From positions 1,860,001 to 1,924,000 of the forward strand of contig NZ_CP091092.1 of assembly GCF_029633915.1 (NCBI RefSeq): 64,000 nucleotides of DNA. The letters are read 5' to 3'. The position numbers were made by a program, and so were the translations under genes. Under the pieces are notes generated by a model. The model was not told where the DNA came from. It made no database searches and saw nothing but the letters and a program-made list of their open reading frames with translations. Positions within the stretch are counted from its first letter, which is position 1; every line of letters begins with the position of its first letter. Shown here piece by piece: positions 3,977 to 63,978 of this stretch. The DNA comes from Methanomicrobium antiquum (GTDB taxonomy: Archaea; Halobacteriota; Methanomicrobia; Methanomicrobiales; Methanomicrobiaceae).

Positions 3977-4165
3977 ACTTTCACCTCCATCCATTGATGA
4001 ATCAAAAGTATCTGATTAGGTTAAATTAAAAAAAACCCTACAATTGTTAATAAATCACTAAAAAGCCAAAAACCGGCAATGAATAAAAATAGCTGAAATA
4101 TTAAAATACTAAAAATGACTGCAGACACCAAAAAAGATACAATTCTTTGCAGGAAAAAGTGATTT

Positions 4166-4192
4166 AAAAACGTTCATGAAATAAATATTTCA
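4166..4192 (+). repeat. Degenerate copy of the CATGAAA hairpin repeat family
   Basis: The sequence aaaaacgttcatgaaat is followed by a weak return arm (atatttca). It matches the left half of the intergenic repeat family described for 6108-6171 but lacks the second hairpin. It lies just left of the terminator hairpin downstream of serA. Confidence 0.5.
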
Positions 4193-4208
4193 GTCAGACT
4201 ATATTTAA

Positions 4209-4245
4209 AAACCAGATCTGATTAACATCAGATCTGGTTTTTTTT
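4209..4245 (-). terminator. Perfect 14-bp hairpin downstream of serA
   Basis: The arms aaaccagatctgat (4209-4222) and atcagatctggttt (4227-4240) are exact complements around a taac loop, with a T-run to 4245 on the plus strand and a weaker T/A-rich tail on the minus strand. It lies about 100 bases beyond the serA stop, so it most likely ends serA transcription. The symmetry would also let it work from the plus side. Confidence 0.6.
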
Positions 4246-5930: not shown

Positions 5931-6107
5931 TTAAAAGTCCCCGTATTATTTTACACATACAGCATATTGATTGTTTTTATAACTTCATCCTCAATAACAG
6001 CCGCAATTTTCCTTTTTTTTATTTTAATCAGTCGCAATTTGAAGGTTTTTTTAGAATTCGACCCAGATTAACATCCTTTCACCAATGATATTTTACAAAC
6101 TTTCTAT

Positions 6108-6171
6108 AAAAACGTCCATGAAATTATATTTCATGCACCGGTTTCATGTAAGTTACAAAGTAACTTTCATG
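6108..6171 (+). repeat. Intergenic hairpin repeat, two-hairpin type copy
   Basis: This is the reference copy of the family. The order is aaaaacgtc, then hairpin 1 (catgaaat and atttcatg arms), the spacer caccggttt, then hairpin 2 (catgtaagttac and gtaactttcatg arms around aaa). It lies in the 500-base divergent gap between serA and ppsA (5931-6430). The remainder of that gap is AT-rich with several atatatcc/tatattca stretches and holds no gene. Confidence 0.9.
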
Positions 6172-6430
6172 TAAATTTTTAAAACTTTTTACAACCTGTT
6201 ACATATGATTCAAAGCTCATTCACAATATATTCATAGCGAATTCCAGTACATACACAATATATATCCAGTATATCTCCTTCATTTACAGTATATTCACAA
6301 CAAAAAAACACACACAATCAACAATGAAAAATCTTTATGAAGATTGTCAGTTGTGGCCACTTTTGGGAAACATAATTTAGCCTCATAGTCATAGATATTA
6401 CACAACCTATACGACAGGTGGATTTATAGC

Positions 6431-16483: not shown

Positions 16484-16653
16484 CTCTAAAAAACTCCATC
16501 AAACCGGTTTTAACATATTTTTACCACAATTCACTTTTTCATAAGTCAATTTGTCACAAGTCACTTTATCATAAACGACTAAATAATCCTGCAATTCGTT
16601 ATTAAATTGTACAATAAAAACTATTAAACGCATAAGATGTGATATAACTTTTA

Positions 16654-17619
16654 ATGGACATTTATCTGCCTGAAAAATATCAGACTATTCCGGTAAAGCT
16701 ATTTGTTCTGGTAATTTTAACTGTTTTTACTTTAATCATTACGTTTTTTTCTCTTTCAGTAAACGTCCAGGTGGTTTTTACACACTTTTATTACATACCA
16801 ATAATCCTGGCGGCATACTGGTTCACAAAAAAAGCGATTGTCTATACAATTTTTCTCTGTGCATTTTATCTGGTATTAGTCTATATTCTAAGCTTTCATA
16901 ATCTGCAGATTTGTTTGGAAGCACTACTACGATGCCTTATATTTACAGGAATCTCATCAGTAACAGCCATTCTTTCGATGACAATTAAAAATCAGAGGAA
17001 AAAAATTAAAGAATCAGAGATGCTTTACAGGGCAGTCTGGGAAAATGTCCAGGCAGGAATTGTTCTGATAAATCCAGAGGACAACAAAATAATCTCAATT
17101 AATCCTGAAGCCTTAAAGATAACAGGTTTTTCAGAGAGTGAGGTTTTAGGACATGTCTGTCACAAATTAATCTGCCCGACACTGGCCGGAAACTGTCCTA
17201 TAAGAAATAAAAGCTTAAAAATTGAAAATGCCGAACGCATTGCCCTTTCAAAAGATGGAAAAGAAATTCCAATTTTAAAAACAGCAACAGCAATGCAGAT
17301 TGGCGATAATGAATTTTTAATAGAATGTTTCATCGATATTTCAAAGATAAAAGAGGCTGAGGCAACACTGCTTGGGTACATTCGTGAAGCAACCCTTCGC
17401 ATAAGAAATCCGGTAAGTCTTGTAAAAAACAATCTTACAGAGCTTAAAAAGGATTTAAATGATAAAACAATAAACCCTGAATATTTTATCACTACTCTTT
17501 CAGTACAGGAGAAGCACATGGAGGAAATTTTGAAAAATTTAAAGGAAATTGAGCAGGCTGTTGCTGAAAAGCATACGGAAATACCAGAAGAATTAAGAAA
17601 TTACTTAAAAAGAGAATAA
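16654..17619 (+). CDS. Membrane PAS sensor with kinase-less DHp-like tail
   Basis: The first 110 residues hold about four hydrophobic helices. A coiled linker (NQRKKIKESE) leads to one PAS domain (about 125-235) with a cysteine pattern GHVCHKLICP...GNCP, like the PAS 1 of the protein at 14889. The last 85 residues (LGYIREATLRIRNPVSLVKN to EIPEELRNYLKRE) match the tail of that neighbour. RIRNPVSLV recalls the HisKA segment HEIRNPLxxI, but the histidine position is occupied by another residue and the protein ends without an ATPase domain. A gatgtgat site precedes the ATG. A short inverted repeat just after the stop (near 17620-17640) may end transcription. Confidence 0.82.
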   Translation: MDIYLPEKYQTIPVKLFVLVILTVFTLIITFFSLSVNVQVVFTHFYYIPIILAAYWFTKKAIVYTIFLCAFYLVLVYILSFHNLQICLEALLRCLIFTGISSVTAILSMTIKNQRKKIKESEMLYRAVWENVQAGIVLINPEDNKIISINPEALKITGFSESEVLGHVCHKLICPTLAGNCPIRNKSLKIENAERIALSKDGKEIPILKTATAMQIGDNEFLIECFIDISKIKEAEATLLGYIREATLRIRNPVSLVKNNLTELKKDLNDKTINPEYFITTLSVQEKHMEEILKNLKEIEQAVAEKHTEIPEELRNYLKRE

Positions 17620-17668: not shown

Positions 17669-18538
17669 TTAAGTCGGAGTTTCATTCATCTCCAGAAATA
17701 TCTTCGTAATTTCTGCATATTCATAAGGTGCATAACTTGATCCCATATGAGGGATGCCTTTGAATCTTACAAGCCATGAGCCGTTAATCCTGTCTGCAAT
17801 TAAAACTGCCACCGACTGCGGTGTTATAATATCCTCTGTTCCTGTAATCAGCATTATATCATTTTTTATTGATGAGAGATTATCATAACATCCCGGATAT
17901 CCGAGATTTGCAACAGCCTCCTTAACAACGCCTTCTGAAGAGTCGGGATTTGTTAGTGCATCCTCAATAAGTCCATGGAGTACTTCGGTCTTTGGAATTA
18001 AAACGCTGTATGTCGCAGATGATAAAACAGCCTTCCTGACCTTCTCCGGGTGTGAGATTAAAAGCTGTTGTGCAACTGTTGATCCCATCGAAACGCTATA
18101 GGTATTCATGCTGTCATATCCGAGGCCTGTTATAAGATTTGCCGCATCGTCAGAGAGATCATATATGGTAAAATTACTTAGTGTTTTTGAACTTTCACCC
18201 ATATCCCGGTGATCATAGATATAAACATGATAATTTTCAGAAAGAAGACTGATAAATGTCGTATTCCACGAATCCATTGTCCCACCAAATCCTATTATCA
18301 TCAAAAGAGGTTCTGAATCAGGTTTTCCAAATTCACGGTATGCAAGGCTTACATTATAAGAAAGATCAAGATACGAAACAGGCGTTTTTTCATATGAAAT
18401 AATGGAAATCTCTGACATGGGGGTTTGTGAGATTGTTTGCACAGGCAATTCTGATTCTGATTCTGATGTGCATCCTCCTGCAAAGACTGAGAAAACCAAA
18501 ACCAGCATAAAAAAAATTAAAGAAATATACTTTTTCAT
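17669..18538 (-). CDS. Alpha/beta hydrolase lipoprotein
   Basis: A 289-residue extracytoplasmic hydrolase. The N-terminus is a lipoprotein signal (MKKYISLIFFMLVLVFSVFA) followed by GGC, so Cys23 would be the anchoring residue. The fold is the alpha/beta hydrolase type: oxyanion strand IIGFGGTMDSW, nucleophile elbow YSVSMGST, acid in GTEDIITP and histidine in KGIPHMGSS. The elbow reads SxSMG rather than the usual GxSxG, a mild variation. It ends in EMNETPT. Substrate unknown. It converges with the PAS gene and is divergent from the transglutaminase-like gene. An agagga site precedes the ATG. Confidence 0.88.
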   Translation of the reverse strand: MKKYISLIFFMLVLVFSVFAGGCTSESESELPVQTISQTPMSEISIISYEKTPVSYLDLSYNVSLAYREFGKPDSEPLLMIIGFGGTMDSWNTTFISLLSENYHVYIYDHRDMGESSKTLSNFTIYDLSDDAANLITGLGYDSMNTYSVSMGSTVAQQLLISHPEKVRKAVLSSATYSVLIPKTEVLHGLIEDALTNPDSSEGVVKEAVANLGYPGCYDNLSSIKNDIMLITGTEDIITPQSVAVLIADRINGSWLVRFKGIPHMGSSYAPYEYAEITKIFLEMNETPT

Positions 18539-19518: not shown

Positions 19519-19540
19519 GGATTTAAAATATCTGATGATA

Positions 19541-19758
19541 AAAAACGTTCATGAAACTAAGGTTTCATGCAATAGTTACATGTAAATCACAAAGTGATTT
19601 TCATGGTAAATCGCTTAATTAAAGACTTTCATGAAATTATATTTCATGCAACAGCTTCATGAAAGCTACGAAATTACTTCCATGTGAAAAATGCATGATA
19701 AGCGTTTTTCATCACACAAAAACTGATGACAAGTATATCAGGGATTTTAGACTTTCAT
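19541..19758 (+). repeat. Composite hairpin repeat: two copies plus third module
   Basis: Two units of the family lie in tandem: 19541-19604 (hairpin 1 variant with actaagg loop, hairpin 2 with arms aaatcac/gtgattt) and 19624-19685 (catgaaattatatttcatg, then a degraded second hairpin). A third module follows from about 19692 to 19758: catgataagc, tcatcac...tgatga-type arms, then tatcagggattttagacttt. The third module recurs at 22590-22661 and 46930-46994. Confidence 0.85.
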
Positions 19759-20054
19759 AACTAATCAAAAGACTACAGATTCACGAAAGTTAATGACATT
19801 GGCAAAAGGGAAAATGAATGCATAAAAAGAGATCCAAAGGATTTGTTTATGTGGTAATATTAATATCTAATCGGCCAAATATAGTAAGGCACAATTTAAC
19901 TAAAAAAGTTCATGAAACAAATGTTTACATTAAAAAATAGATGTAATTAACAATTTAGTTTCATAGAAATTCATATCAGACCGGATATTTTCTAAACGAT
20001 TTCATAGTAATCAGGTCTGATTTATAGAAGCAAACAAATTATCTTATATCCCAT
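19759..20054. other. Gap before tRNA-Gln with a degenerate repeat and probable promoter
   Basis: A worn copy of the repeat family is visible at 19903-19930 (aaaaagttcatgaaac...gtttacat). An 8-base inverted pair, atcagacc (19975-19982) and ggtctgat (20014-20021), spans 31 bases. The tttatag at about 20020-20026 lies about 30 bases before the tRNA and is a plausible TATA box. No coding frame is supported. Confidence 0.5.
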
Positions 20055-20127: not shown

Positions 20128-20243
20128 TAAAAAGACCTCTTTTTAATGAAATTATTAATTCATGGTTTTTAAGAAGAAGAATCCTCCTGATTCTTAATTA
20201 TGAAATTGAATGAAATAAAATTAGGATATAATTATTTTCAATG

Positions 20244-20270
20244 AAAACGTCCATGAAATTATATTTCATG
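20244..20270 (+). repeat. Half copy of the hairpin repeat (hairpin 1 only)
   Basis: The sequence aaaacgtc then catgaaat-tat-atttcatg is identical to hairpin 1 of the reference copy, but the second hairpin is missing. It lies 12 bases beyond the stop of the minus-strand PAS sensor. Read on that strand, the hairpin is followed by gacgtttt, so here it could act as a terminator. Confidence 0.8.
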
Positions 20271-20281
20271 TAAAACTCATA

Positions 20282-21841
20282 TCAGGATTTTTCAGATTCA
20301 TCAGTATCAATCTCATAATATTTTCTTAGATATTCCCTGATTTTTTCAGATTCCACCCAGCTTTGATCAAGTTCATTTATGAGCCTGTCAATAATTCCTG
20401 CCTGATCCAAAATTTTTTCTGAATATTCTCCGGAAATCATAGATGCATAGCCAACAATTACTGCAAGAGGATTTCTTATCTCGTCATTTAAAGCCGCAAG
20501 TCTCAAAAGATTTTTTTCAATCTGCTTTAATGCCTCAAATTCACGGATCCTTGATTCCTTTTCTGCTGTGATATCAACAAACGAACAGTGAACGCCATGG
20601 AATATGCCTTTTTTATCTCTGACTTCCGAAACTGAGCCGATTCCATAAAATGATGAGCCGTCATCGCGTAACCCCAAAACCTCACCTGTACGGCTGTCTG
20701 ATTTTTCTTTCTCCTCAATAGTTTTATCTTTAAAAAAATCTGATAAAAACTCAGTGTTTTGTATTAACGATGAGATTTCTCTCATTTTTGCAGCCTTTTC
20801 ATCAATATTCCACTGATTTTGTGCGGCTTTATTCATATAAACAATCCTTCCGGATTCATCAGATATCACAACAGGACTTACCGATGAATCTATTGCAAGA
20901 TTTTTTAGCAAAAGTTCATCTTCAGCTTTTTCAAGTTCATCAGTTCTTTTTCTAAAAGCCCTGTTAAGCCACATATGACTATAAACTGTATAACCTGACA
21001 GGATACCTATAAAAATTACAAAAAACAAGGTGGTCTGTCTGAAAGGCGACATTTTATCCTCAACAAAACCCATCCATCCGTTTTCAGGTGCAATTGCAAA
21101 TGTCCAGATTTCATTGCCTATAGTCATCTCATATAATCCGGGGGAATTATCAAATACAGACTCATTACCATAAAAAACACCATAATCATCGTTTTTCATA
21201 GCTACGTTATATCCATGAATTTTAAACATGCCACTTTGATCATAGATTTTTGGAAGATCAACTGACAATGACACAAAACCCCAGAAATCACCGTCATCGG
21301 ATGTGCCGTTTAGGAAAACAGCCTTAGTTATGATAATTTCATCTTTTCCCAGATGATTTTTTACAGGACCTCTGAGGACAAAAGGCTTCCCATTTAAAAG
21401 ATATTCATTCTGTCTGACAATTGCAGGGCTTGGATCATTAAAAAAATTATAGTTTAAAAAAAACTCATTCCCTGATTCCGGATATATATATGTATAGACA
21501 CCATCAGGTGCAACACCTATGAAATTTAATTCAGAATGGCCTGACAAAAGAGTTTTTGCAAAAATATTGAATCTGGAATCCAGTTTGTTATTATCAATCT
21601 CAGCAACAACAAATGAATAAACACCATCAATGAGCCCTATTTTTTCGTTTATTGAATAAGTAATGGAATTGCTGTAAAAAGAAAATTCATGATGCAGAGT
21701 TTCTTTATGATCGCTTATTAGTTTTTCACTGTAAACCAGACAGCCATAATGCCATATTGGAAGTAATAAAAAAATTACCAGAATACATACCAAAAATGCA
21801 CCAATTACAGGATTTTTTCTGATATATTCAGGATATGTTAT
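20282..21841 (-). CDS. Membrane PAS sensor, kinase-less DHp-like tail, possible AUA start
   Basis: An N-terminal membrane helix, an extracytoplasmic ligand-binding region (Cache/CHASE-like, about residues 40-255), a second helix (about 262-285), a coiled linker, one PAS domain (about 310-440) and a C-terminal helix pair. The pair contains LNDEIRNPLAVIVGYASM, where a kinase would have HEIRNPL; Asp replaces the phospho-acceptor His, and no ATPase domain follows. Conventional initiation is TTG at 21793, which cuts into the first membrane helix. The frame continues upstream, and gaggaggt at 21855-21848 lies six bases before ATA at 21841, giving the N-terminus TYPEYIRKNP before the helix. That start is preferred but unproven. 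Confidence 0.82.
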   Translation of the reverse strand: MTYPEYIRKNPVIGAFLVCILVIFLLLPIWHYGCLVYSEKLISDHKETLHHEFSFYSNSITYSINEKIGLIDGVYSFVVAEIDNNKLDSRFNIFAKTLLSGHSELNFIGVAPDGVYTYIYPESGNEFFLNYNFFNDPSPAIVRQNEYLLNGKPFVLRGPVKNHLGKDEIIITKAVFLNGTSDDGDFWGFVSLSVDLPKIYDQSGMFKIHGYNVAMKNDDYGVFYGNESVFDNSPGLYEMTIGNEIWTFAIAPENGWMGFVEDKMSPFRQTTLFFVIFIGILSGYTVYSHMWLNRAFRKRTDELEKAEDELLLKNLAIDSSVSPVVISDESGRIVYMNKAAQNQWNIDEKAAKMREISSLIQNTEFLSDFFKDKTIEEKEKSDSRTGEVLGLRDDGSSFYGIGSVSEVRDKKGIFHGVHCSFVDITAEKESRIREFEALKQIEKNLLRLAALNDEIRNPLAVIVGYASMISGEYSEKILDQAGIIDRLINELDQSWVESEKIREYLRKYYEIDTDESEKS

Positions 21842-21992
21842 TGTTATACCTCCTCATGAAAATTTACCCGCCGGATTTTTTGCTATTTGTTTTAGAGATA
21901 TATATTGCTTTTTCATATGACAGGCAAAGATAAAAAAAATCAGAGATTCTTTGCCTTTTCAAAATATTTTTACCTTTTTTAAAAAAAAATTA

Positions 21993-22056
21993 CATGAAAT
22001 TTACTTCTTAACTTAGATGAAACCGTTGTATAAAATGTAATTTCATGGACGTTTTT
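21993..22056 (-). repeat. Hairpin repeat copy, reverse orientation
   Basis: Read on the minus strand it gives aaaaacgtccatgaaattac, then diverged arms ending in catg. Hairpin 2 is degraded (aagtt/aactt arms partly kept). It sits in the 230-base gap between two minus-strand genes. Confidence 0.7.
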
Positions 22057-22071
22057 ATTGAATTGTAGATT

Positions 22072-22341: not shown

Positions 22342-22950
22342 TGCCGTTCACCAAATTCCCTGTTTTTTAATTATTATACCAATCTGCATTTAAATCTGTA
22401 GTTAAAAATCTGTAGTTAACTTTGTAATTCAGCATGTATTTAAAACTGTAGTTTAGCCTGTAGTGAAGTCTTTAGTTAACAGACAGGCACTTCAGACATG
22501 CATTTTTTTTCAGATTTACCATGAAAACGTCCATGAAATTATATTTCATGCACCGGTTTCATGTAAGTTACAAAGTAACTTTCATAGCAAACGCACATGA
22601 TAAGCTTTTTTCATCACACAAAAAAGTGATGATAAGTCTATCAGGGATTTTAGACTTTCATTGCGAATCACATTATTACCTACAAAAAGCAACATGAAAC
22701 TTTGAATGAAAAATTTATTTTGTGAAAATTATTAGCAGAAATTTTTCAAAATTTAAAAAAAACCTCTTCTTTAACTCCATCTTAAATCAGATAATCTGGT
22801 TCAATATCATATTTCACCATAAATAAGGTCTTATTCCATCCCTTTTTGCAGACACTAAAATGAAAAAATTATGAAAAAAATCTCAATAGAAATCATTAAA
22901 ATCAGCAAAACCTTTCTATTCAGTAATACAAACCTAAAAGATACGATAAT
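22342..22950. other. 600-base divergent gap with repeat element
   Basis: Holds a full-length repeat (listed at 22524-22661). Around 22390-22480 the phrase ctgtagttaa and its variants recur four or five times (taaatctgtagttaaaaatctgtagttaac...), a local short tandem duplication. The rest is AT-rich and without a gene. Confidence 0.6.
22524..22661 (+). repeat. Full-length three-module hairpin repeat
   Basis: The most complete copy. Hairpin 1 (catgaaattatatttcatg), caccgg spacer and hairpin 2 (catgtaagttac-aaa-gtaactttcat) are identical to the copy at 6108 over about 60 bases. A third module then holds two further perfect 7-base stems: tcatcac/gtgatga and aagtcta/tagactt. It lies in the divergent gap between a minus-strand gene and the signal peptidase gene. 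Confidence 0.9.
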
Positions 22951-28997: not shown

Positions 28998-29126
28998 TTA
29001 TTCTCATCTCAACAAATTTGATAAAATATTTTGACATTGTTCTTTAACGCTATTAGTTTAACAGACAATAATAATATTTTATTCTTAACAAAAGTTTTCT
29101 ATTTGGTACTGAATTTTTTTATTCAC

Positions 29127-29188
29127 CATGAAAACCAAATCTGATTTTCATGAAACACTGCATGAAAAATTAGTTTCATGAATGTTTT
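29127..29188 (-). repeat. Hairpin repeat, variant with catgaaaatcag arms
   Basis: Read on the minus strand: aaaaacattcatgaaactaa, ttttcatgcagtg, then catgaaaatcagat paired with ggttttcatgg. Hairpin 1 is altered and hairpin 2 uses a different inner sequence. A near-identical copy is the right half of the element at 63581-63706. Confidence 0.8.
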
Positions 29189-29227
29189 TTGGAATTTTTT
29201 CAGGCAGAATAATTACAATCCAAAAAA

Positions 29228-30814: not shown

Positions 30815-33800
30815 TCAGGCAATAATTGAGTTCAATGCTTTCTTTCTTGCCTTTAATGCACCCTCATGCTCCGGTTCAAGCGCAAGAGTCTTTTCAAAGC
30901 ATTCAAGAGCTTTCTCATATACACCGGTTTGACCATATAAAACACCAAGAGTGAACAAACACTCGGCATTTTCAGAATCCAAAGAAAAAGACTTTTCAAA
31001 GCATTTCTTCGCGGCATCATAATATCCCTTCTTTATGAAAACAAGACCCTTTGAGAAGAGATATTCAGGATCATTTAACTGTTTGGACGTTGGTTTGTCA
31101 GTCTCATTTATAGTATATAAAATTTTTTCCCGATTTGATGCTGATTCATCAAATGCAACATTCCCCATATCAGATTCGTCTGTGTAATCATCCGGGTAAT
31201 CATCTTTCACCCTTATTTCACTATTATTCAGACTGCTCTTAGCCTTTTCAGGCAGACCGAATCTTTTAAAGGATTCACGCGGAATTTTGGAAGTTTCCTT
31301 TCTTTCCAAGAAGTAAGTTGCATCAATTCCGTTTTTAGCCCATACATTTCCATATTCAGGGTCAATATCTATTGTATTCATATAACAGGACAGTGCCTGC
31401 TTATGCATCCCGAGTTTTATGAATGCAAGGCCTGTATTTAAAAGACTCTCAGGATCATCGGGCTTTAGTTTTGAAACAGTTTTAAAGGTTGAAACTGCCT
31501 TTTCATACTGACCTGCCGCATAATGAGCCATTCCTTTTGATGTCAGAAGGCCTGCATCCTCCGGTATCATCTCAATCAGCATTTCATAATATCCAATAGT
31601 CTCAGAATACCTCTCCATATCAGACAGGAGTGTTATAAGAGAGAGGATATTTCCAGAATTATGCGGGTCAATCCTGACTGCAGTCTGATACAAAACAACT
31701 GCTTCTTCAAAATGTTCTAATTTTTCCAAAACAGTGCCTTTTCCTGCAATAAGCCCTGCATCATCTGGTGATTTTACAATTAGCAGATCATATAGTGGCA
31801 ATGACTCCTTATACCTGCCAAGATTTATCAGACAGCGTACTTTTCCGGTCAACCCTTCATCCAGGCCTTTTTCGACCTCCAAAGCCATATTATATGAAGA
31901 CAGGGCTTTTTCATACTGACCTGTGGATTCATAAATTTCTCCTAATGAAAGCAGAGCCTCGATATTTTTTGAATCCCTTTTTACAATGCTTTCATAGTCA
32001 ATTTTCGCATCATCAAATCTTTTTGTCAGCTTTTCACATCTGGCTTTTCCTGCCAGTGCTCTTATGTCTTCAGGATTGTATGTCAAAGCCAGATCATAAT
32101 TTTTCAGGGCTTCCTCATAAAGCTCTGATTTTAACTGAATTGCACCAATTTCACAATAAATTATGTAGTCATCAACACCGGATGAGAGAATATCCTGATA
32201 ATCTGAAAGAGCCTCATCATATCTTTCAAGCACTGCAAGCACACGTGCCCTTTCATGCTTTGCGTCTATATCATCCGGTGCCAGTGCAATTGCAACTTCA
32301 AATGAATGAAGAGCTTCATCATATTGACCAACAACTCTCTGGACAAGGCCCCGTGAGTACCAAAGTCCTGCATTTTCCGGATTTTGATTGACGAGCCTTT
32401 CATAACAGACCAGGGCATCAGAATGACGGTTAAGCTTTACCAAAAGCAGTGCCTTTCTAACCCAGGCCTGTGTGAAATCTTCATTGAATAAGAGTGTTTT
32501 ATCATAATCTGTAACGGCTTCTTCGATGTTTAATAAAGTCTCATTCAAAAGAGCTTTTTCATACCACAAGGTGTAATCTGACGGTTTTAGCTCAATCAGC
32601 TTTTGAATTGTATCCTTTGCATCTTTAAATCTTTCAGATTCTTTAAGAAGAGAAAACACTTCCAGGAGTGCTTTTGTGTCATCCGGCGATTCAGACAGGA
32701 TCTTTTCATAAGCAATAAGAGCTTCGTTTGAATTGGCCAGAGCCGCCTGTGAACGGGCATATTTTGCAAGATAATCAGACTCCAAAGTCTCAATTCCACC
32801 TGCCTTTAAGAAATCAGCAACAGCTTCATTATATTTTTTTATGTCGGCAAACACTGAGGCACGACTTAATAAAGCCACGATACAGTGGGGATTTATGTCA
32901 AGGACTTTTTGATATGCCTCTAGTGCACCTTCATAATTATTTTCAGACTTTAATTCATCTGCTTTTTCAAGCCAGTATGATTCACTGAATTCTTCCTCTG
33001 TCTCCGGCATAGAGTCTGAATTCTCAAGTTCTGTTAAACCTGAAAACTCCAAATCTGATTCTTCAGAGGGCAATTCAGAATATTCAGATAAATCTGAGAA
33101 TTCAGACGATAATTCATCATCAAAGGAAGATAATTCACTCTCTAAAGAATCGTCAAGCTCACTTAAGTCAGGAGTAAAGTCAGGAGTAATTACACCTTCA
33201 TCAATAACTACTTCTTCAGCATCAGGTGATAATTCTAAAGCTAATTCATCATCACTGGAGGATAGTTCATCACCAAAGGGAGATAATTCACTCTCTAAAG
33301 AATCATCAAGCTCACTTAAGTCAGGAGTAAAGTCAGGAGTAATTACACCTTCATCAATAACTACTTCTTCAGCATCAGGTGATAATTCTGAAGCTAATTC
33401 ATCATCACTGGAGGATAATTCATCACCAAAGGGAGATAATTCACTCTCTAAAGAATCATCAAGCTCACTTAAGTCAGGAGTGAAGTCCGGAGTAATTACA
33501 CCTTCATCAATAACTACTTCTTCAGCATCAGGTGATAATTCTGAAGCTAATTCATCATCACTGGAGGATAATTCATCACCAAAGGGAGATAATTCACTCT
33601 CTAAAGAATCGTCAAGCTCACTTAAGTCAGGAGTGAAATCCGGAGTAATTACACCTTCATCAATAACTACTTCTTCAGCATCAGGTGATAATTCTGAAGC
33701 TAATTCATCATCACTGGAGGATAATTCATCACCAAAGGGAGATAATTCACTCTCTAAAGAATCATCAAGTTCGCTTAAGTCAGGAACAGGGCCTTCGGAG

Positions 33801-34369
33801 GCTTCAATTGGTTCCTGCTCCAGGCTCAGATAATCATAATCCGGGTCATCATCAGGATTTTCTAAATTCTCCTCTGAAAAGCCGCTCTCAGAAAATGATT
33901 CCTTTGAAGATTCATTTATAATAGATTCATCTACAATAGAACCGTCTGAAAATTCTTCTGAAAAGTTCCCACTTTCCAAAGATTTTTCTTCATCACTGCT
34001 GAAACTCATTCTGATTTCATCATCAACAGGATAATATTCTAAAGATTTATCATCTTCTACTGTTTCCTCAGAAAAAGAACATATTATATCTTTGGACGAA
34101 TCTGAAAAATCACCATCAATGCTTTTTGCCCAGGAAAGCATCTCATCGATCTCATTTAGGACAACATGAATTAATGCAGGATCTTCAGGAACCCTTACAT
34201 CAACAGAATTTTCGCCTGCGTCAACATAAAGGGCTTTATATTTTCCAAAAAGGCCGGACAAATCACTTTTTTCTGCAGAGTTGAAAGATATTGTATACTC
34301 GGATGGAATAAGAAAGCCCTCTTCTCCTTCGTAATATTGTTTTATTGTAATCTCTGCCATTTTAATCAT
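30815..34369 (-). CDS. Giant acidic TPR protein, 1184 aa
   Basis: Starts with a conserved-looking domain of about 95 residues (ITIKQYYEGEEGFLIPSEY...). A long acidic, serine-rich region follows. It includes four copies of a 51-residue repeat (about residues 196-400; key phrases DLSELDDSLESELSPFGDEL and EEVVIDEGVITPDFTP) and a broken fifth. From about residue 460 to 1030, sixteen or so TPR repeats follow (for example YEGALEAYQKVLDINPHC). A charged linker and two more TPRs close the protein. No signal peptide or membrane helix is evident, so it should be a cytoplasmic scaffold. Shorter TPR and coiled-coil genes lie downstream on the opposite strand. Confidence 0.85.
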   Translation of the reverse strand: MIKMAEITIKQYYEGEEGFLIPSEYTISFNSAEKSDLSGLFGKYKALYVDAGENSVDVRVPEDPALIHVVLNEIDEMLSWAKSIDGDFSDSSKDIICSFSEETVEDDKSLEYYPVDDEIRMSFSSDEEKSLESGNFSEEFSDGSIVDESIINESSKESFSESGFSEENLENPDDDPDYDYLSLEQEPIEASEGPVPDLSELDDSLESELSPFGDELSSSDDELASELSPDAEEVVIDEGVITPDFTPDLSELDDSLESELSPFGDELSSSDDELASELSPDAEEVVIDEGVITPDFTPDLSELDDSLESELSPFGDELSSSDDELASELSPDAEEVVIDEGVITPDFTPDLSELDDSLESELSPFGDELSSSDDELALELSPDAEEVVIDEGVITPDFTPDLSELDDSLESELSSFDDELSSEFSDLSEYSELPSEESDLEFSGLTELENSDSMPETEEEFSESYWLEKADELKSENNYEGALEAYQKVLDINPHCIVALLSRASVFADIKKYNEAVADFLKAGGIETLESDYLAKYARSQAALANSNEALIAYEKILSESPDDTKALLEVFSLLKESERFKDAKDTIQKLIELKPSDYTLWYEKALLNETLLNIEEAVTDYDKTLLFNEDFTQAWVRKALLLVKLNRHSDALVCYERLVNQNPENAGLWYSRGLVQRVVGQYDEALHSFEVAIALAPDDIDAKHERARVLAVLERYDEALSDYQDILSSGVDDYIIYCEIGAIQLKSELYEEALKNYDLALTYNPEDIRALAGKARCEKLTKRFDDAKIDYESIVKRDSKNIEALLSLGEIYESTGQYEKALSSYNMALEVEKGLDEGLTGKVRCLINLGRYKESLPLYDLLIVKSPDDAGLIAGKGTVLEKLEHFEEAVVLYQTAVRIDPHNSGNILSLITLLSDMERYSETIGYYEMLIEMIPEDAGLLTSKGMAHYAAGQYEKAVSTFKTVSKLKPDDPESLLNTGLAFIKLGMHKQALSCYMNTIDIDPEYGNVWAKNGIDATYFLERKETSKIPRESFKRFGLPEKAKSSLNNSEIRVKDDYPDDYTDESDMGNVAFDESASNREKILYTINETDKPTSKQLNDPEYLFSKGLVFIKKGYYDAAKKCFEKSFSLDSENAECLFTLGVLYGQTGVYEKALECFEKTLALEPEHEGALKARKKALNSIIA
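33120..33785 (-). repeat. 153-bp in-frame tandem repeat inside the giant TPR gene
   Basis: The phrase tctctaaagaatc recurs at 33140, 33293, 33446, 33599 and 33752, a period of 153 bases (51 codons). Four full units and a truncated fifth are nearly identical at DNA level (a few single-base changes), which points to recent expansion. The encoded region is acidic and probably disordered. Confidence 0.95.
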
Positions 34370-34866
34370 CAGAATTGGATAAAACCTTGTTAATGTTGCA
34401 AATTAGATTGTATATATATTTTTACACTCATTTACACTTATTGAAGAATCTTTCTTAGTTTAATAACAAGATGATTCATTCTTGACACATATATTATTTT
34501 TAAAAAAAATATTTCCAAATTGTTATTATCACTACAATATCAAAGGTTTGATTCTTACAATAAATCACATTGTGATTACATAAAACAGTGCATGAAAAAT
34601 TTCACAACTGTTTTTTTTTAACTTATTTGCCTATTTTGTTTCTTTTGTTTATTTTGTTTCTTTGTTCCTTTTGTTTATTTTATTTCTTTGTTTCTTTTGT
34701 TTATTTTGTTTCTTTGTTCCTTTTGTTTCTTTGTTCCTTTTGTTTATTTTGTTTCTTTGTTCCTTTTGTTTATTTTATTTCTTTGTTTCTTTGTTTCTTT
34801 GTTTCTTTGTTTCTTTGTTTCTTTTGTTTCATGGTCTAAATTAATCAAAATAATTCAATGAAATAA
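34370..34866. other. Gap with long pyrimidine-rich microsatellite
   Basis: From about 34625 to 34830 the plus strand is almost entirely T with G or C interruptions, in variants of tttgtttattttgtttctttgttcc that repeat about six times. On the minus strand this is an A-rich tract. A short worn repeat copy lies at 34563-34602. No gene is seen; a frame through the tract is an artefact of the low-complexity DNA. Confidence 0.75.
34563..34602 (-). repeat. Degenerate hairpin repeat copy
   Basis: Contains aatcac-att-gtgatt followed by acataaaacagtgcatgaaaaattt, matching hairpin 2 and part of hairpin 1 of the family in reverse orientation. It is shorter and more worn than most copies. Confidence 0.5.
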
Positions 34867-38090: not shown

Positions 38091-38123
38091 TAAGTAAAAC
38101 AAACGATGAACAAGATGACCAAT

Positions 38124-38244
38124 AAAAATTTCATGAAGCAAGTGTTTCATTCATGATTATCAAAAAACAGATTTGATTTGCAATGAAAGTTACTCTGTAA
38201 CTTACATGAAACCGTGCATGAAATATAATTTCATGAACGTTTTT
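38124..38244 (-). repeat. Hairpin repeat, full copy plus worn half copy
   Basis: The main copy (38183-38244) reads on the minus strand as aaaaacgttcatgaaattat, atttcatgcacggtttcatg, taagttacagagtaactttcat. A worn half copy lies at 38124-38151. The main copy is about 95 bases past the thiC stop and ends in gaacgttttt on the plus strand, so it could terminate thiC transcription. Confidence 0.85.
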
Positions 38245-38331
38245 ATAGCAAATTTACCTACAATTTACAAAAAATTATTTTTTGCGCTTATTATCTCTTA
38301 TTTTTTTCTCTTATTTTTTAATTAACGAGCG

Positions 38332-41725: not shown

Positions 41726-41756
41726 AAAAAAACGTTCATGAAACAATGGTTTCATG
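41726..41756 (+). repeat. Half copy of the hairpin repeat
   Basis: aaaaaaacgttcatgaaac-aat-ggtttcatg: hairpin 1 variant with the same gttcatgaaac arms as the copy at 19541. The second hairpin is absent or replaced by aaacaaatttgatcttcac. The gap to the next gene (41757-42095) holds no gene. Confidence 0.75.
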
Positions 41757-42095
41757 AAAAACAAATTTGATCTTCACAATAAATGAACTACTATTAGGAA
41801 TCATTCTAAACAAACACAATGCCATGAAAAAAAGAGGACATTTTTTTTAAGTTGAATTAATAGCTTTTTGAATTAAATCGTGCGCGAAATAATTTGTGAA
41901 AAAATCTAAGAATAATAATACTAAAAAAATTAGATTAAAAATTAACTTTTTTCCTTGGAAATAAGATATTTAAATGAAATCCCGTTCAAAACAAAATATA
42001 ACAAATGTCAGTAATATTAATTTCCCCTGTGAAATAAAGTGAAAAAAATACGAACAAAAATAAGATATTGATTTAAAATAATTATACTGATTTTT
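41757..42095. other. Gap before aminotransferase gene, no gene seen
   Basis: AT-rich DNA. There is no clear ribosome binding site before the ATG at 42096, while tatactga at about 42080 could be a promoter element for a leaderless or short-leader transcript. No stable hairpin other than the preceding repeat. Confidence 0.45.
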
Positions 42096-43707
<1,612 letters not shown>

Positions 43708-44040
43708 TTTCAAAAATAACAAAAAATTTTCTTTTTTGAAAGTTGCACATATAGTAACATATAAATAATATAAATTAAAAAATAAAGGCAGAATCAGCCA
43801 TTTGGAATATCTGCATAAAATTAAGATTTTACCATTGTATAAACCAAACCTGATTTTCATAATAACCGTTGCATGAAAAATTAGTATGATAAGTTCGATA
43901 ATTAATTTCATGAACGTTTTTCTGGGAATTTGTAGAGGTTGAGTCCTTGATTTAAGATTGATCACTAAGGTTAATCAGTCTAATCTCTCTGATAAAATCT
44001 TTTTTTGCATATGTTTCAAAAACACAGGGGGATTTATTGC
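43708..44040. other. Gap after ribC with a repeat copy
   Basis: AT-rich gap. It contains the repeat copy listed at 43843-43921. The rest shows no coding frame except the candidate small gene that begins at 44041. Confidence 0.5.
43843..43921 (-). repeat. Hairpin repeat copy, worn, reverse orientation
   Basis: On the minus strand it starts aaaaacgttcatgaaattaa, then diverged DNA, then ttttcatgcaacgg and atgaaaatcagg. The outer parts match the family, and the middle is altered. It ends in gaacgtttttc on the plus strand, 140-215 bases past the ribC stop. Confidence 0.7.
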
Positions 44041-46547: not shown

Positions 46548-47087
46548 TTAAAGACTTTTATTCAAAAATACTTCAAAATACTTAGTTTAAATTCAAATTG
46601 GCTTTAATTTAACCTTTTTAACTTTTTAACTTTTTTTAACTTTTAAAATATCACAAATGAAACTTATCTTTCTGAAATTCCGGCTATTACATGAAAGTTA
46701 TCTTGAAAAATTCAATGAAACAACAATTTCAGACAAAACCAGACAAAAGTTTGATAAAAAAACGTTCATAAAATTCTATTGGAATTTTATTTCATGCAAC
46801 TTTTCATTTAAACTACGAAGTAGCTTTCATATGAATCAAATTTTATTTTCATGGCAAAAAACGTCCATGATAATTTTTTTCATGCTAACTGTTTCATGTA
46901 AGTTACGAAGTAACTTTCATGTAAAACCCGCATGATGAGCTTTTTTCATCACACAAAAAAGTGATGAAAGTCTATCAGGAATTTTGACTTTCATTGCAAA
47001 TATCTTTTCAGATTACTCACCCCTCTAAATTCATGATGAGAAAGATAATACTATTAAAAATACAAACCTAAATGCAGGAGTAATAAT
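46548..47087. other. 540-base gap holding the largest repeat composite
   Basis: Contains the composite repeat at 46756-46994. The left part near 46590-46640 is T-rich (ctttttaactttttaac repeated). An aggagt ribosome binding site precedes ribH. A 92-residue frame that crosses the gap runs through the hairpins and is not regarded as a gene. Confidence 0.6.
46756..46994 (+). repeat. Composite hairpin repeat, 239 bases, two copies plus third module
   Basis: Left unit (46756-46830): aaaaaaacgttcat, then variant arms aaaattctattggaatttta, and a second hairpin with aactacgaagtagcttt. Second unit (46856-46921): aaaacgtccatgataatttttttcatg, then catgtaagttac-gaa-gtaactttcatg. The third module (about 46930-46994) has tcatcac/gtgatga and ends in ttgactttcat. 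It is the longest member of the family in the window. Confidence 0.88.
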
Positions 47088-49440: not shown

Positions 49441-50157
49441 AGCACTTAATTTTTGAGTTTTTTTCTGTTATCCTTTTTGACTCTTCGCCATATTTCTGAT
49501 CACCCTAATTTGGAATTGATTTGTCGCGATGTACACAATATCCCCGGGAACCGGAGGGGCTTAGCCCCCCTCCGGGGACCTATCGTAAGCGGGGTGGGTT
49601 TAAGGGAGGGGCCTGTCCCCTCCCTTGCTAATAATCGATTAGCTTTGATTGTCTTCCAGTCAAGGCCAGTAACCTAAGAAACTGATGAAATCTTCCATAT
49701 CAATAATCTTAAAAGCCCACAAATGAGAACATATGTGTGAATGCAGAAATGCATTCCCTCCATTTGTAATGTTTATTGGACATATCATCACATTTGGAGG
49801 TTATTCTCTAAGTTGTTTCTCTTTTTGGATAGTCCTAACTTTCAGAAAAATGGAGAAGAACCTCCTTCTTTTCAAGGTCTTATATTATCTTTTTTAGTAT
49901 TTGCAGTATCAATTCTTTTTTAGTTTTTTACAATTTTTTTTATTTTTTATTTCTTTCTTTTTCAATTTTTTTTATTTTTTATTTCTTTCTTTTTCAATTT
50001 TTTTTATTTTTTATTTCTTTTTCAATTTTTTTTATTTTTTTTTCTTTTCAATTTTTTTATTTTTTTTTATTTCTTTTCAATTTTATATCCCCTTTTTTTC
50101 AGGTTTTGTAATAATTTAGTGCTGTTTTTATCTACATTTAGGTACCACATTTATTAA
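49441..50157. other. 717-base gap with GC-rich hairpins and T-rich microsatellite
   Basis: Three parts. At 49540-49630 two strong GC hairpins lie in tandem (listed separately). At about 49740-49800 a pair of imperfect inverted arms (cctccatttgtaatg / catcacatttggagg) and gaatgc-agaaat-gcattc are seen. From about 49900 to 50100 the DNA is T-rich with repeats of tttttatttctttctttttcaa. A frame crossing the first part and others in the T tract are not credible genes. It may be a relic of a mobile element, but no transposase is left. Confidence 0.55.
49540..49630. repeat. Pair of GC-rich hairpins in AT-rich DNA
   Basis: Hairpin A: ccggagggg (49551-49559) pairs with cccctccgg (49567-49575), or alternatively ccccgg (49542-49547) with ccgggg (49572-49577). 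Hairpin B: aagggagggg (49602-49611) pairs perfectly with cccctccctt (49617-49626) around cctgt. The GC content is far above the surroundings. This looks like a REP-type or transposon-end structure, but could be a structured RNA. Confidence 0.75.
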
Positions 50158-50982: not shown

Positions 50983-51024
50983 TGTTGAATTTGAATATAT
51001 AATTGTTGAATTTGAATATATAAT
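50983..51024. repeat. Perfect 21-bp tandem duplication
   Basis: The unit tgttgaatttgaatatataa plus a final t occurs twice without a mismatch, at 50983-51003 and 51004-51024. It directly abuts the hairpin repeat at 51029. Confidence 0.95.
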
Positions 51025-51028
51025 ATTA

Positions 51029-51107
51029 CATGAAAATTACATTTGTAACTTACATGAAACAGTTAGCATGAAACCTTGCATGAAATATAATTTCATGGAC
51101 GCTTTTT
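51029..51107 (-). repeat. Hairpin repeat copy, reverse orientation
   Basis: On the minus strand: aaaaagcgtccatgaaattat, atttcatgcaaggtttcatg, ctaactgtttcatgtaagttac and further arms. On the plus strand the final hairpin is followed by gacgcttttt. It is located 180 bases past the stop of the second COG2426 gene. Confidence 0.82.
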
Positions 51108-56595: not shown

Positions 56596-56621
56596 CTGAA
56601 ATCCTCAAATTTTTTTTTAAG

Positions 56622-56674
56622 AAACTTTCACGAACCTGATTTTTCATGCAACGTTATTATGAAAATCAGATTTT
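56622..56674 (-). repeat. Very worn hairpin repeat copy
   Basis: Contains aaactttcac-gaacctgatttttcatgcaac-gttattatgaaaatcagatttt. The arms cctgattttt and aaaatcag pair. It resembles the catgaaaatcag variant at 29127 but lacks the aaaaacg end. Assignment to the family is uncertain. Confidence 0.4.
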
Positions 56675-56691
56675 ATTTTACAGGGTAAATC

Positions 56692-57865: not shown

Positions 57866-57989
57866 TCTTAAATCTCCCCAATTAGTCCTGTATAATTTCC
57901 AGGTATTTTATAGAGTGATGCTTTCTGTATAAAAATATATAGGATGAAAATTTTCTGCAAAAATAAGCCTGCCGAAAAAAATGGTTTCC

Positions 57990-58055
57990 CATGAAAATCA
58001 AATTATGATTTTTTCATTAAAAAGTCCATGAAAAATTTGTTTCATGAACGTTTTT
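57990..58055 (-). repeat. Hairpin repeat copy abutting a stop codon
   Basis: On the minus strand: aaaaacgttcatgaaacaa, atttttcatggac, and then a pair aaaaaatcat/atgattt...catg. The end (tttttt) runs up to and includes the stop codon (58056-58058) of the Cache-domain gene. It is the closest contact between a repeat and a coding sequence in the window. Confidence 0.75.
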
Positions 58056-58910
58056 TTAAAGTTCACGAATTGAGATTAAACGCAACTCTTCTCCATGAAG
58101 GCCAATTGTTGTCCATATGGCTTTTTTATCAACATTCTTTGAAAGAGTTTTATCAAGATAGCTGTATTCAAATTCGCCTGAGAAAGAATCAGAATATGCT
58201 TTTGCAAATTCCAGTACTTCGGGGAATTCATCATACATCGGATTATTAAATGTCTCTTTTCCAATCTCGTTTATGTCAGTATCGTATAATACAACACCGT
58301 CTTTTTGTGCAATCATTACCTGATATTCTGTATTATTCATAAAATCCGAGGCAGGTTCATTAAAAAGAGTATATGGATCAAATGTAAGGCTTACAAAACC
58401 TGTGTACTTTTTATCATTTGAAAATACAGGATAGTTGACTGACGCCGCATAGCCTCCTTCAGACAGTGCAAAAAGGCCTGTCATCTGCGGCACCATCTCC
58501 TCATTCATTGAGGAAACAACCGGTGTTTCTGATAAGTCCCATCCCGTAATATTGTGCGTTAAAGGAGACATTGCTGTGCATATTCCCTGACTGTCAAATA
58601 TTCCGATTGTTACAATACCAGGCATTATTTTTTGGGCTTTGTCAAGTTCAGCCTGAATGTAGTCTCCAAAAAGACCTTTTTCAGCAGATATCCGGGCAGT
58701 TTTTTCTGTGATTTCTGAAAGATTTACAAGTTTCTCCTGAAATTCACCCTGATTTAAAAGAAGCGATTTTGCCATGTATCCGTCACCTAAATTCAAAGAA
58801 TTCTGACAGGGTCTTAGGTCTTCTTTTCCCGGCAGTGCAAAATGCAGAAAAACAACTGCCAAAAGGATGGTTACGACTGAAAAAAACGCTATTTCTTTTA
58901 CATATTTCAT
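58056..58910 (-). CDS. Membrane-anchored Cache-domain protein
   Basis: The 284 residues begin with one membrane helix (about 7-26, IAFFSVVTILLAVVFLHFAL), followed by a long extracytoplasmic domain. Segments such as GIVTIGIFDSQGICTAMSPL, FVSLTFDPYTLF and YQVMIAQKDGVVLYDTDINEIG match double Cache ligand-binding domains. No cytoplasmic signalling part follows, so it is a sensor fragment or a free ligand-binding protein; it may interact with another receptor. A repeat adjoins its stop. Confidence 0.8.
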   Translation of the reverse strand: MKYVKEIAFFSVVTILLAVVFLHFALPGKEDLRPCQNSLNLGDGYMAKSLLLNQGEFQEKLVNLSEITEKTARISAEKGLFGDYIQAELDKAQKIMPGIVTIGIFDSQGICTAMSPLTHNITGWDLSETPVVSSMNEEMVPQMTGLFALSEGGYAASVNYPVFSNDKKYTGFVSLTFDPYTLFNEPASDFMNNTEYQVMIAQKDGVVLYDTDINEIGKETFNNPMYDEFPEVLEFAKAYSDSFSGEFEYSYLDKTLSKNVDKKAIWTTIGLHGEELRLISIREL

Positions 58911-63412: not shown

Positions 63413-63978
63413 AGATATCTATCCCGAATAAAGATAGGCTTCTATATAGAATGCAATGTAAAAAAGATTTTCTCTCATTTTAGAAAAACATCCATTTTTT
63501 TCAAAAATTAGATATTTAAAGAAATAAATTTCTGAAATTAAAGATTTTAGAGAACATATGACTTTTCAATATTGATTTACCATGAAAAAGTTCATGAAAT
63601 TATATTTCATGAAACAGTTTCATGTAAGTTACAGAGTAACTTTCATGGAAAACCAAATCTGATTTTCATGAAACACTGCATGAAAAATTAGTTCATGAAT
63701 GTTTTTATAAAAAAGACAGACAAAACTAATCATTTTCGGAAAGAATTTATAACTACCTAATAGTGATACATAACTTATCACACAAAATTACATGACTACC
63801 TGACTCTAAGTATACATTAAGCATAGTTGCTATCAAAATCAACGCAAATCTAAAACATGAAATCCTATTAATAGAACGGGAAGTTACAAAGTTTTTTGTC
63901 TGGATTTAGATTTTTAACCAGAGGTGTCTGGAAAGTCTTAAAATCAAGGATTATTTTGAAGAATTAAAGGGATGAAGC
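63413..63978. other. Gap at right edge with double repeat
   Basis: Holds the double repeat listed at 63581-63706. Elsewhere AT-rich with ttagagaacatatg-like sequence; no gene except the partial start at 63979. Confidence 0.5.
63581..63706. repeat. Two hairpin repeat copies in convergent orientation
   Basis: The left half (63581-63647) reads aaaaagttcatgaaattata, tttcatgaaacagtttcatg, taagttacagagtaactttcatgg: forward type. The right half (63650-63706) reads on the minus strand aaaaacattcatgaactaat, ttttcatgcagtg, catgaaaatcag: the same variant as 29127-29188. The two meet at catgg, so the joint is a palindromic array. Confidence 0.88.

Follow-up and report, generated by a model that had tools for sequence, protein, structure and literature searches.

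A two-hairpin repeat family in Methanomicrobium antiquum and related Archaea, probably non-autonomous mobile DNA inserted at A-runs

MITEs have terminal inverted repeats in common with a transposon and are usually flanked by a target duplication. REPs of the CGTC type, including dRS3 of Neisseria and RPE-4 and RPE-6 of Rickettsia, are defined by an unpaired CGTC (or TGTC or CCTC) at one end of a hairpin with a stem of 8-9 bp and a loop of 4-5 nt; A-T pairs occupy stem positions one and two, a CCA-type tail follows, and the units occur mainly as head-head dimers (Di Nocera et al. 2013, PMC3733652). No transposase is known for these bacterial repeats, and their spread without a RAYT was left open (PMC3733652). 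GTAG REPs and REPINs are paired with a RAYT (Y1) transposase (PMC3116915, PMC6006769). Two archaeal examples come from Haloquadratum walsbyi: PATEs, with near-terminal palindromes, no inverted terminal repeats, no target duplications and IS605-type kin in the genome, and SMRs, which have inverted terminal repeats, an unknown mode of mobilisation and a tendency to insert into other elements (PMC3119063). Since archaeal Y1 enzymes in a survey of this class were of the IS200 type only, the REP-associated class not being seen (PMC6006769), a REP-like amplification in an archaeon is unexpected.

Here we describe a family of hairpin repeats encountered in a 64,000-nt stretch (the window; GC 36.7%) of the 2,438,126-b, single-contig genome of the methanogen Methanomicrobium antiquum. 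The family is probably non-autonomous, hairpin-forming mobile DNA that copies into intergenic T-rich/A-run sites (about TTTnnnT-AAAA). Its dispersal, its patchiness among relatives and seven pairs of filled and empty sites together point to an element that was active recently. An Rfam search of the window returned tRNA only and no family matching the repeat, and the open-access literature yielded no description of such a hairpin family for Methanomicrobiaceae.

The repeat unit is about 66-71 nt long and contains two hairpins, with the core layout A4-6-CGT(C/T)-[CATGAAAT..ATTTCATG]-spacer-TTTCATG-[AAGTTAC..GTAACTT]-TCATGT-AAA(A) and the consensus (T)AAAAACGTYCATGAAATTATATTTCATGCAACnGTTTCATGTAAGTTACGAAGTAACTTTCATGTAAAA. 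Hairpin 1 (H1) has an 8-bp stem that opens with a C-G pair followed by A-T, and in most copies a loop of 3-4 nt; a short GCAAC/GCACC spacer runs from it into hairpin 2 (H2), whose stem is about 5-7 bp. The tag CGT is nearly fixed, its fourth base being C in 47, T in 42 and A in 1 of 90 copies, and the two ends of the element have only ATGAAA in common. The two hairpins proposed in the initial annotation thus stand, while the left A-run, there taken as part of the core, is at least partly derived from the target, and at the right the element ends in TTTCATGT, after which comes the A-run of the target.

Both stems carry compensatory changes. When 105 distinct copies were aligned by fitting them to a covariance model, 95.5% of the pair cells held standard pairs, a share that fell to 48% or less when one arm was slid, and 63 stem cells showed double changes, as against 17 in shuffles; this covariation tracks a few subfamilies and so reflects few independent events. 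Whole base pairs are exchanged between the H2 subfamilies (GTTAC/GTAAC, ATCAC/GTGAT and an AAATCA type), and the inner pair of H1 is U-A, C-G or A-U. The ATCAC form is minor in M. antiquum and major in Methanolacinia, and a form tagged CGTG occurs in two further genomes (G006 and G009), with additional compensatory changes in H1 in one G009 copy.

A covariance model trained on 29 copies and run with cmsearch detects about 20 copies within the window and at least 150 in the genome (Table 1). All 17 places named in the initial annotation match it, 15 at E<1e-3, 4165 at E=0.005 and 38124 at E=0.01; at the last of these the plus-strand match is weak and a strong copy adjoins it on the minus strand. 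That list missed the copies at 19620, 46856 and 63638(-). Chance can be dismissed as an explanation: the pattern CATGAAAN{2,14}TTTCATG has 13 matches against 0.05 expected in shuffled sequence, the kind of excess that had been set beforehand as the test, and the core AAACGTYCATGAAA has 142 exact matches in the genome against none for the reversed control pattern. Both orientations occur, as had been claimed (76 plus and 74 minus among the 150 matches listed). Spacing of the best 150 copies is Poisson-like (median 11.7 kb, expected 11.3 kb), with no neighbours within 300 nt among them; weaker close pairs exist, such as 63583/63638 in the window.

Table 1. Hairpin repeats and type II cassettes in the window (positions of the window), and filled sites with their empty counterparts in two Methanolacinia genomes (insert between slashes)
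Feature	Position or site	Strand	Evidence or junctions
Worn copy, H1 only, right half degraded	4165..4211	+	cmsearch 26.3 bits, E=0.005
Full two-hairpin copy, anchor of the finding	6107..6177	+	96.3 bits
Full copy, ATCAC/GTGAT subfamily	19540..19611	+	90.9 bits
Full copy, tandem with copy at 19540	19620..19690	+	71.1 bits
Type II cassette (CATGATAAGCGTTTTTCATCACAC...), 3' of copy at 19620	19694..19761	+	pattern match, genome 1879694
Worn copy	19901..19971	+	30.2 bits, E=5e-4
Short single-hairpin form AAAACGTCCATGAAATTATATTTCATGTAAAAC	20242..20287	+	39.6 bits
Full copy	21987..22057	-	76.0 bits
Full copy	22522..22592	+	91.1 bits
Type II cassette, directly 3' of copy at 22522	22596..22664	+	pattern match, genome 1882596
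Full copy, third subfamily (AAAATCA stem)	29121..29190	-	68.4 bits
Worn copy	34552..34616	-	39.7 bits
Weak copy	38122..38190	+	24.8 bits, E=0.01
Full copy	38176..38245	-	90.0 bits
Single-hairpin form	41727..41784	+	41.1 bits
Copy with insertion	43827..43922	-	37.0 bits
Copy, H1 loop enlarged	46757..46837	+	57.4 bits
Full copy, tandem with copy at 46757	46856..46927	+	85.4 bits
Type II cassette, directly 3' of copy at 46856	46931..46997	+	pattern match, genome 1906931
Copy with spacer segment duplicated	51023..51107	-	65.2 bits
Worn copy	56619..56690	+	35.5 bits
Full copy, third subfamily	57984..58056	-	66.1 bits
Full copy	63583..63653	+	88.3 bits
Second copy, tail-to-tail with copy at 63583	63638..63707	-	52.9 bits
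Pair 1			GAATTATCAAAAA/CGTTT..CATGT/AAAATACC vs empty GAATTACCAAAAATACC
Pair 2			TTATTAAAA/CG..CATGT/AAAATCAAATGG vs empty TTATTTAAAAATCAAATGG
Pair 3			CCCGGAAAAA/CG..CATGT/AAGATCG vs empty CCCGGAATAAGATCA
Pair 4			GACTTAAAA/CACG..CATGGT/AAACCTTC vs empty GACTTAAACCTTC
Pair 5, 43-nt one-hairpin form	X:75982		ATTATTCAAAAAA/CG..CATGT/AAAACCGG vs empty ATTACTTAAAACCGG
Pair 6, 42-nt one-hairpin form	Y:53436		TTTGTGTAAAAA/TG..CATGT/AAAACCCCC vs empty TTTGTGTAAAACCCCC
Pair 7			GTTTCATCAAAAA/CG..CATGT/AAAACTG vs empty GTTTCATAAAACA

The hairpin repeats lie essentially only between genes. With an ORF caller made for the analysis and run on stretches picked around the copies, overlap with an ORF is apparent for 6 of 90; five of the six overlap short ORFs (79-129 aa), and the sixth, at genome position 2255732, lies under the upstream end of a 460-aa ORF whose start is possibly mis-called. 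Many copies of the family itself (type I) are joined to a second hairpin unit, the type II cassette (AAAACGCACATGATGAGCTTTTTTCATCACAC...TATCAGGGATTTTAGACTTTCAT), which has 76 copies genome-wide. Of these, 47 lie immediately 3' of a type I copy (47 among the 150 matches listed), 10 follow another type II unit in tandem and 19 are found elsewhere; none of the 76 stands 5' of type I.

The window contains other repetitive features. Just past the worn copy at 4165, a palindrome AAAACCAGATCTGATTAACATCAGATCTGGTTTTTTTT (4206-4243) looks like an intrinsic terminator, which is unusual in an archaeon. A 10-bp unit, AGATAAAAAT, forms a near-perfect tandem array of about nine copies at 260-349, close to a long T-rich stretch, and long low-complexity, pyrimidine-rich intergenic tracts of (TTTGTTTC)n-like and TTTTTTATTTCTTTC-like sequence occupy 34600-34840 and 49878-50067. 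A 153-nt unit occurs as five direct repeats, with 67-97% identity, at 32952-33863 within an ORF on the minus strand (30815-34369) that encodes 1184 aa with many TPR repeats.

Among relatives the family is patchy. At a presence threshold of E<1e-6 it occurs in 10 of the 232 genomes of the order and in 6 of 40 genera. Counted at E<1e-3, there are at least 83 copies in the genome of the window (G000), 47 in G013, 45 in G007, 45 in G009, 21 in G004, 10 in G006, 2 in G016 and 1 in G001; a third Methanolacinia genome, G019, has a single match. The window is syntenic gene-for-gene with contig C3 of G004 and largely with contig C2 of G001, both congeneric, and the corresponding gaps in the compared stretches of both contain no copy (best match E=0.5). 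Judged by this distribution, the family is amplified in a lineage-specific manner. The lone G001 copy and one G016 copy are nearly identical to those of the window, while the compared G001 genes are about 70% identical in DNA, and the family has perhaps been transferred between genera. The sole copy found in G001 (L061:1501-1680, contig C3) has a tandem repeat of GGTCAAGTAGT about 50 nt downstream. A pattern search of genome contigs added one Methanomicrobiaceae MAG (L190); a bacterial record that also matched proved unrelated. Searches of plasmids and phages gave no match, and viral contigs gave one only, a chance match in unrelated DNA.

Evidence of movement comes from two Methanolacinia genomes, M. 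petrolearia (G007, of the same family as M. antiquum) and G013, which are about 93% identical (mostly 90-95%) and colinear over long stretches. Seven clean orthologous pairs, filled in one and empty in the other, have the insert at an A-run (C32:6226, C32:145763, C41:60781, Y:103732, X:75982, Y:53436 and a site in L205). The empty site is a run of 3-5 A in six of the seven and AATAA in the seventh, and A's flank every insert on both sides; the insert of pair 6 is placed precisely where a type II unit common to both genomes begins with AAAA. Because the A-runs vary in length by 0-2 at several sites and no single model fits every site, a TAAA or AAAA duplication is not separable from an A-run target combined with A's of the element's own, and the exact positions of the cuts are masked by the A-runs at the two ends. 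The pairs lack base-level outgroup polarity, and precise excision is possible, though G019 of the same genus has just the single match. Other sites in the two genomes are shared, partial or too diverged for reading, and long indels beside elements contain ordinary genes. In M. antiquum 76% of copies have a T preceding the A-run, whereas the figure for other intergenic A-runs is 47%, and insertion sites are T-rich 5-7 nt upstream. Methanolacinia also has a second, GC-rich mosaic repeat family, with modules of about 125 nt in inverted pairs that often adjoin the hairpin element. Its dozens of copies are 75-92% identical (L147:12451-12785, 16599-17021 and 18253-18414; G007:C1:1694366-1695955), and in one place about five units form an alternating +/- array that is BIME-like.

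The covariance model, the survey of relatives and the flanks of orthologous gaps, the checks proposed with the initial annotation, thus support mobility; the target duplications sought at the flanks do not stand out from the A-run in 90 copies. The label given there, MITE- or REP-type, is apt in kind, for a noncoding, dispersed, lineage-specific family with seven filled/empty pairs, and strictly the family is neither. Its CGTC-like tag at the foot of a stem of about 8 bp resembles that of CGTC REPs, and it shares with them a high copy number, a mostly intergenic position, patchiness across lineages and the lack of a dedicated transposase. Unlike them, it is archaeal, has CGTT about as often as CGTC, contains as a fixed part a second hairpin unrelated in sequence to the first, and has an A-run target shown by empty sites. 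Its stem begins with CATG, and it has no CCA tail and no head-head dimers; as three CGTC-REP features (A-T stem start, CCA tail and head-head dimers) are thereby missing, we class it as REP-like and not as a member. GTAG REPs and REPINs are likewise non-autonomous dispersed hairpins with an asymmetric tagged end, but the stem foot here has no GTAG and the element-rich genomes have no RAYT/Y1. Like PATEs and SMRs, the family is archaeal, has no transposase and inserts into other elements. It has palindromes as PATEs do, but without a Y1 gene in G000, G007 or G013 or matching ends at the Y1 loci of relatives, and unlike SMRs it has no real terminal inverted repeats. Classical MITEs (NEMIS/Correia, RUP, Nezha) are similarly short, noncoding, intergenic and mobile, whereas this family lacks a real terminal inverted repeat and a clear target duplication, and no parent transposon was found in G007.

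How the repeat moves can be narrowed from these comparisons. It is unlikely to be an archaeal member of the CGTC superfamily of REPs that a Y1 (RAYT/IS200) transposase mobilises through single-stranded hairpins, even though the CGT(C/T) tag by an 8-bp stem, the high intergenic copy number, the absence of terminal inverted repeats and an orientation fixed relative to the A-run target, as in REP/IS200 logic (PMC3733652, PMC6006769), would all fit. A search with one Pfam profile for Y1 transposases (PF01797) found none in G000, G001, G004, G007 or G013, which include the four genomes with the most intact copies (G000 and G007, complete single contigs, and G004 and G013, draft assemblies), and G007 and G013 have nonetheless diverged by recent insertions. 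Ends matching the repeat are also absent from the Y1 loci of other genomes in the order, and the missing tail, dimers and pair of opening A-T pairs weigh on the same side. A lagging-strand, Y1-like mechanism would also predict a strand bias, and orientation relative to the replication strand shows a weak skew and no clear bias, a point that also counts against the Y1-like parallel drawn below. A classical MITE that owes its movement to a DDE transposase and leaves short TAAA or AAAA target duplications is improbable as well: A-runs lie on each side of the inserts, and Y:103732, Y:53436 and C32:145763 are readable as TAAA duplications, but C41:60781 has none, flank matches among 90 copies do not exceed those of shuffles, the terminal inverted repeat amounts to ATGAAA, and G007 has no longer element with the same ends.

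Spread without an enzyme, by template switching or annealing of hairpin fragments at A-runs during replication, could draw on the A-run microhomology at each end, the variable A-run lengths, the CATGTAAA direct repeats, which would permit hairpin loss or gain, and the precedent of bacterial CGTC REPs that likewise lack a transposase (PMC3733652). It sits poorly with the precise, recurrent use of CGT and CATGT as the ends and with the T-rich preference upstream, which suggest recognition by a protein, and we regard it as quite unlikely. We give very little credence to a functional RNA element, or a terminator or mRNA-stability hairpin, kept by selection at gene ends. The intergenic position and the hairpins preserved through compensatory changes agree with such a role, and convergent gaps, defined with the ORF calls on the stretches around copies, are slightly over-represented (25 observed against 17.8 expected), but this excess is not significant (p=0.16), both orientations occur relative to genes, congeneric genomes with the same genes lack copies in the orthologous gaps, and presence differs between two genomes about 93% identical. 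As the convergent excess is not significant and orthologous gaps do without the repeat, no terminator or RNA role is needed.

For mobile DNA of the kind favored here, the inserted unit would read [target A-run]-CGT(C/T)-hairpin 1-spacer-TTTCATG-hairpin 2-TTTCATGT-[A-run]. A trans-acting enzyme may recognise the folded hairpins together with the CGTY foot and would cut or join at the A-run, by analogy with Y1 transposases, which are guided by a tetranucleotide next to a hairpin. Since TTTCATGT-AAA at the right end is similar to the target, older units could receive new ones at their ends, and tandem cassettes would grow in this way. In G007, however, no gene is bracketed by left and right element ends and no longer element has those ends; ten proteins encoded next to copies in the window comprise sensors, hydrolases and the like, and no transposase. 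With PF01797 absent and no bracketed gene, the candidates are a divergent HUH enzyme, a recombinase or no enzyme. Tentatively, an enzyme outside the Y1/RAYT group may insert hairpin units at TTTnnnT^AAAA, the right end re-creating the site so that cassettes stack in a fixed order, and may still be active in Methanolacinia. The combination of recently moved CGTC-like copies, exact empty sites, small and complete Y1-free genomes and two close species makes the missing enzyme directly searchable.
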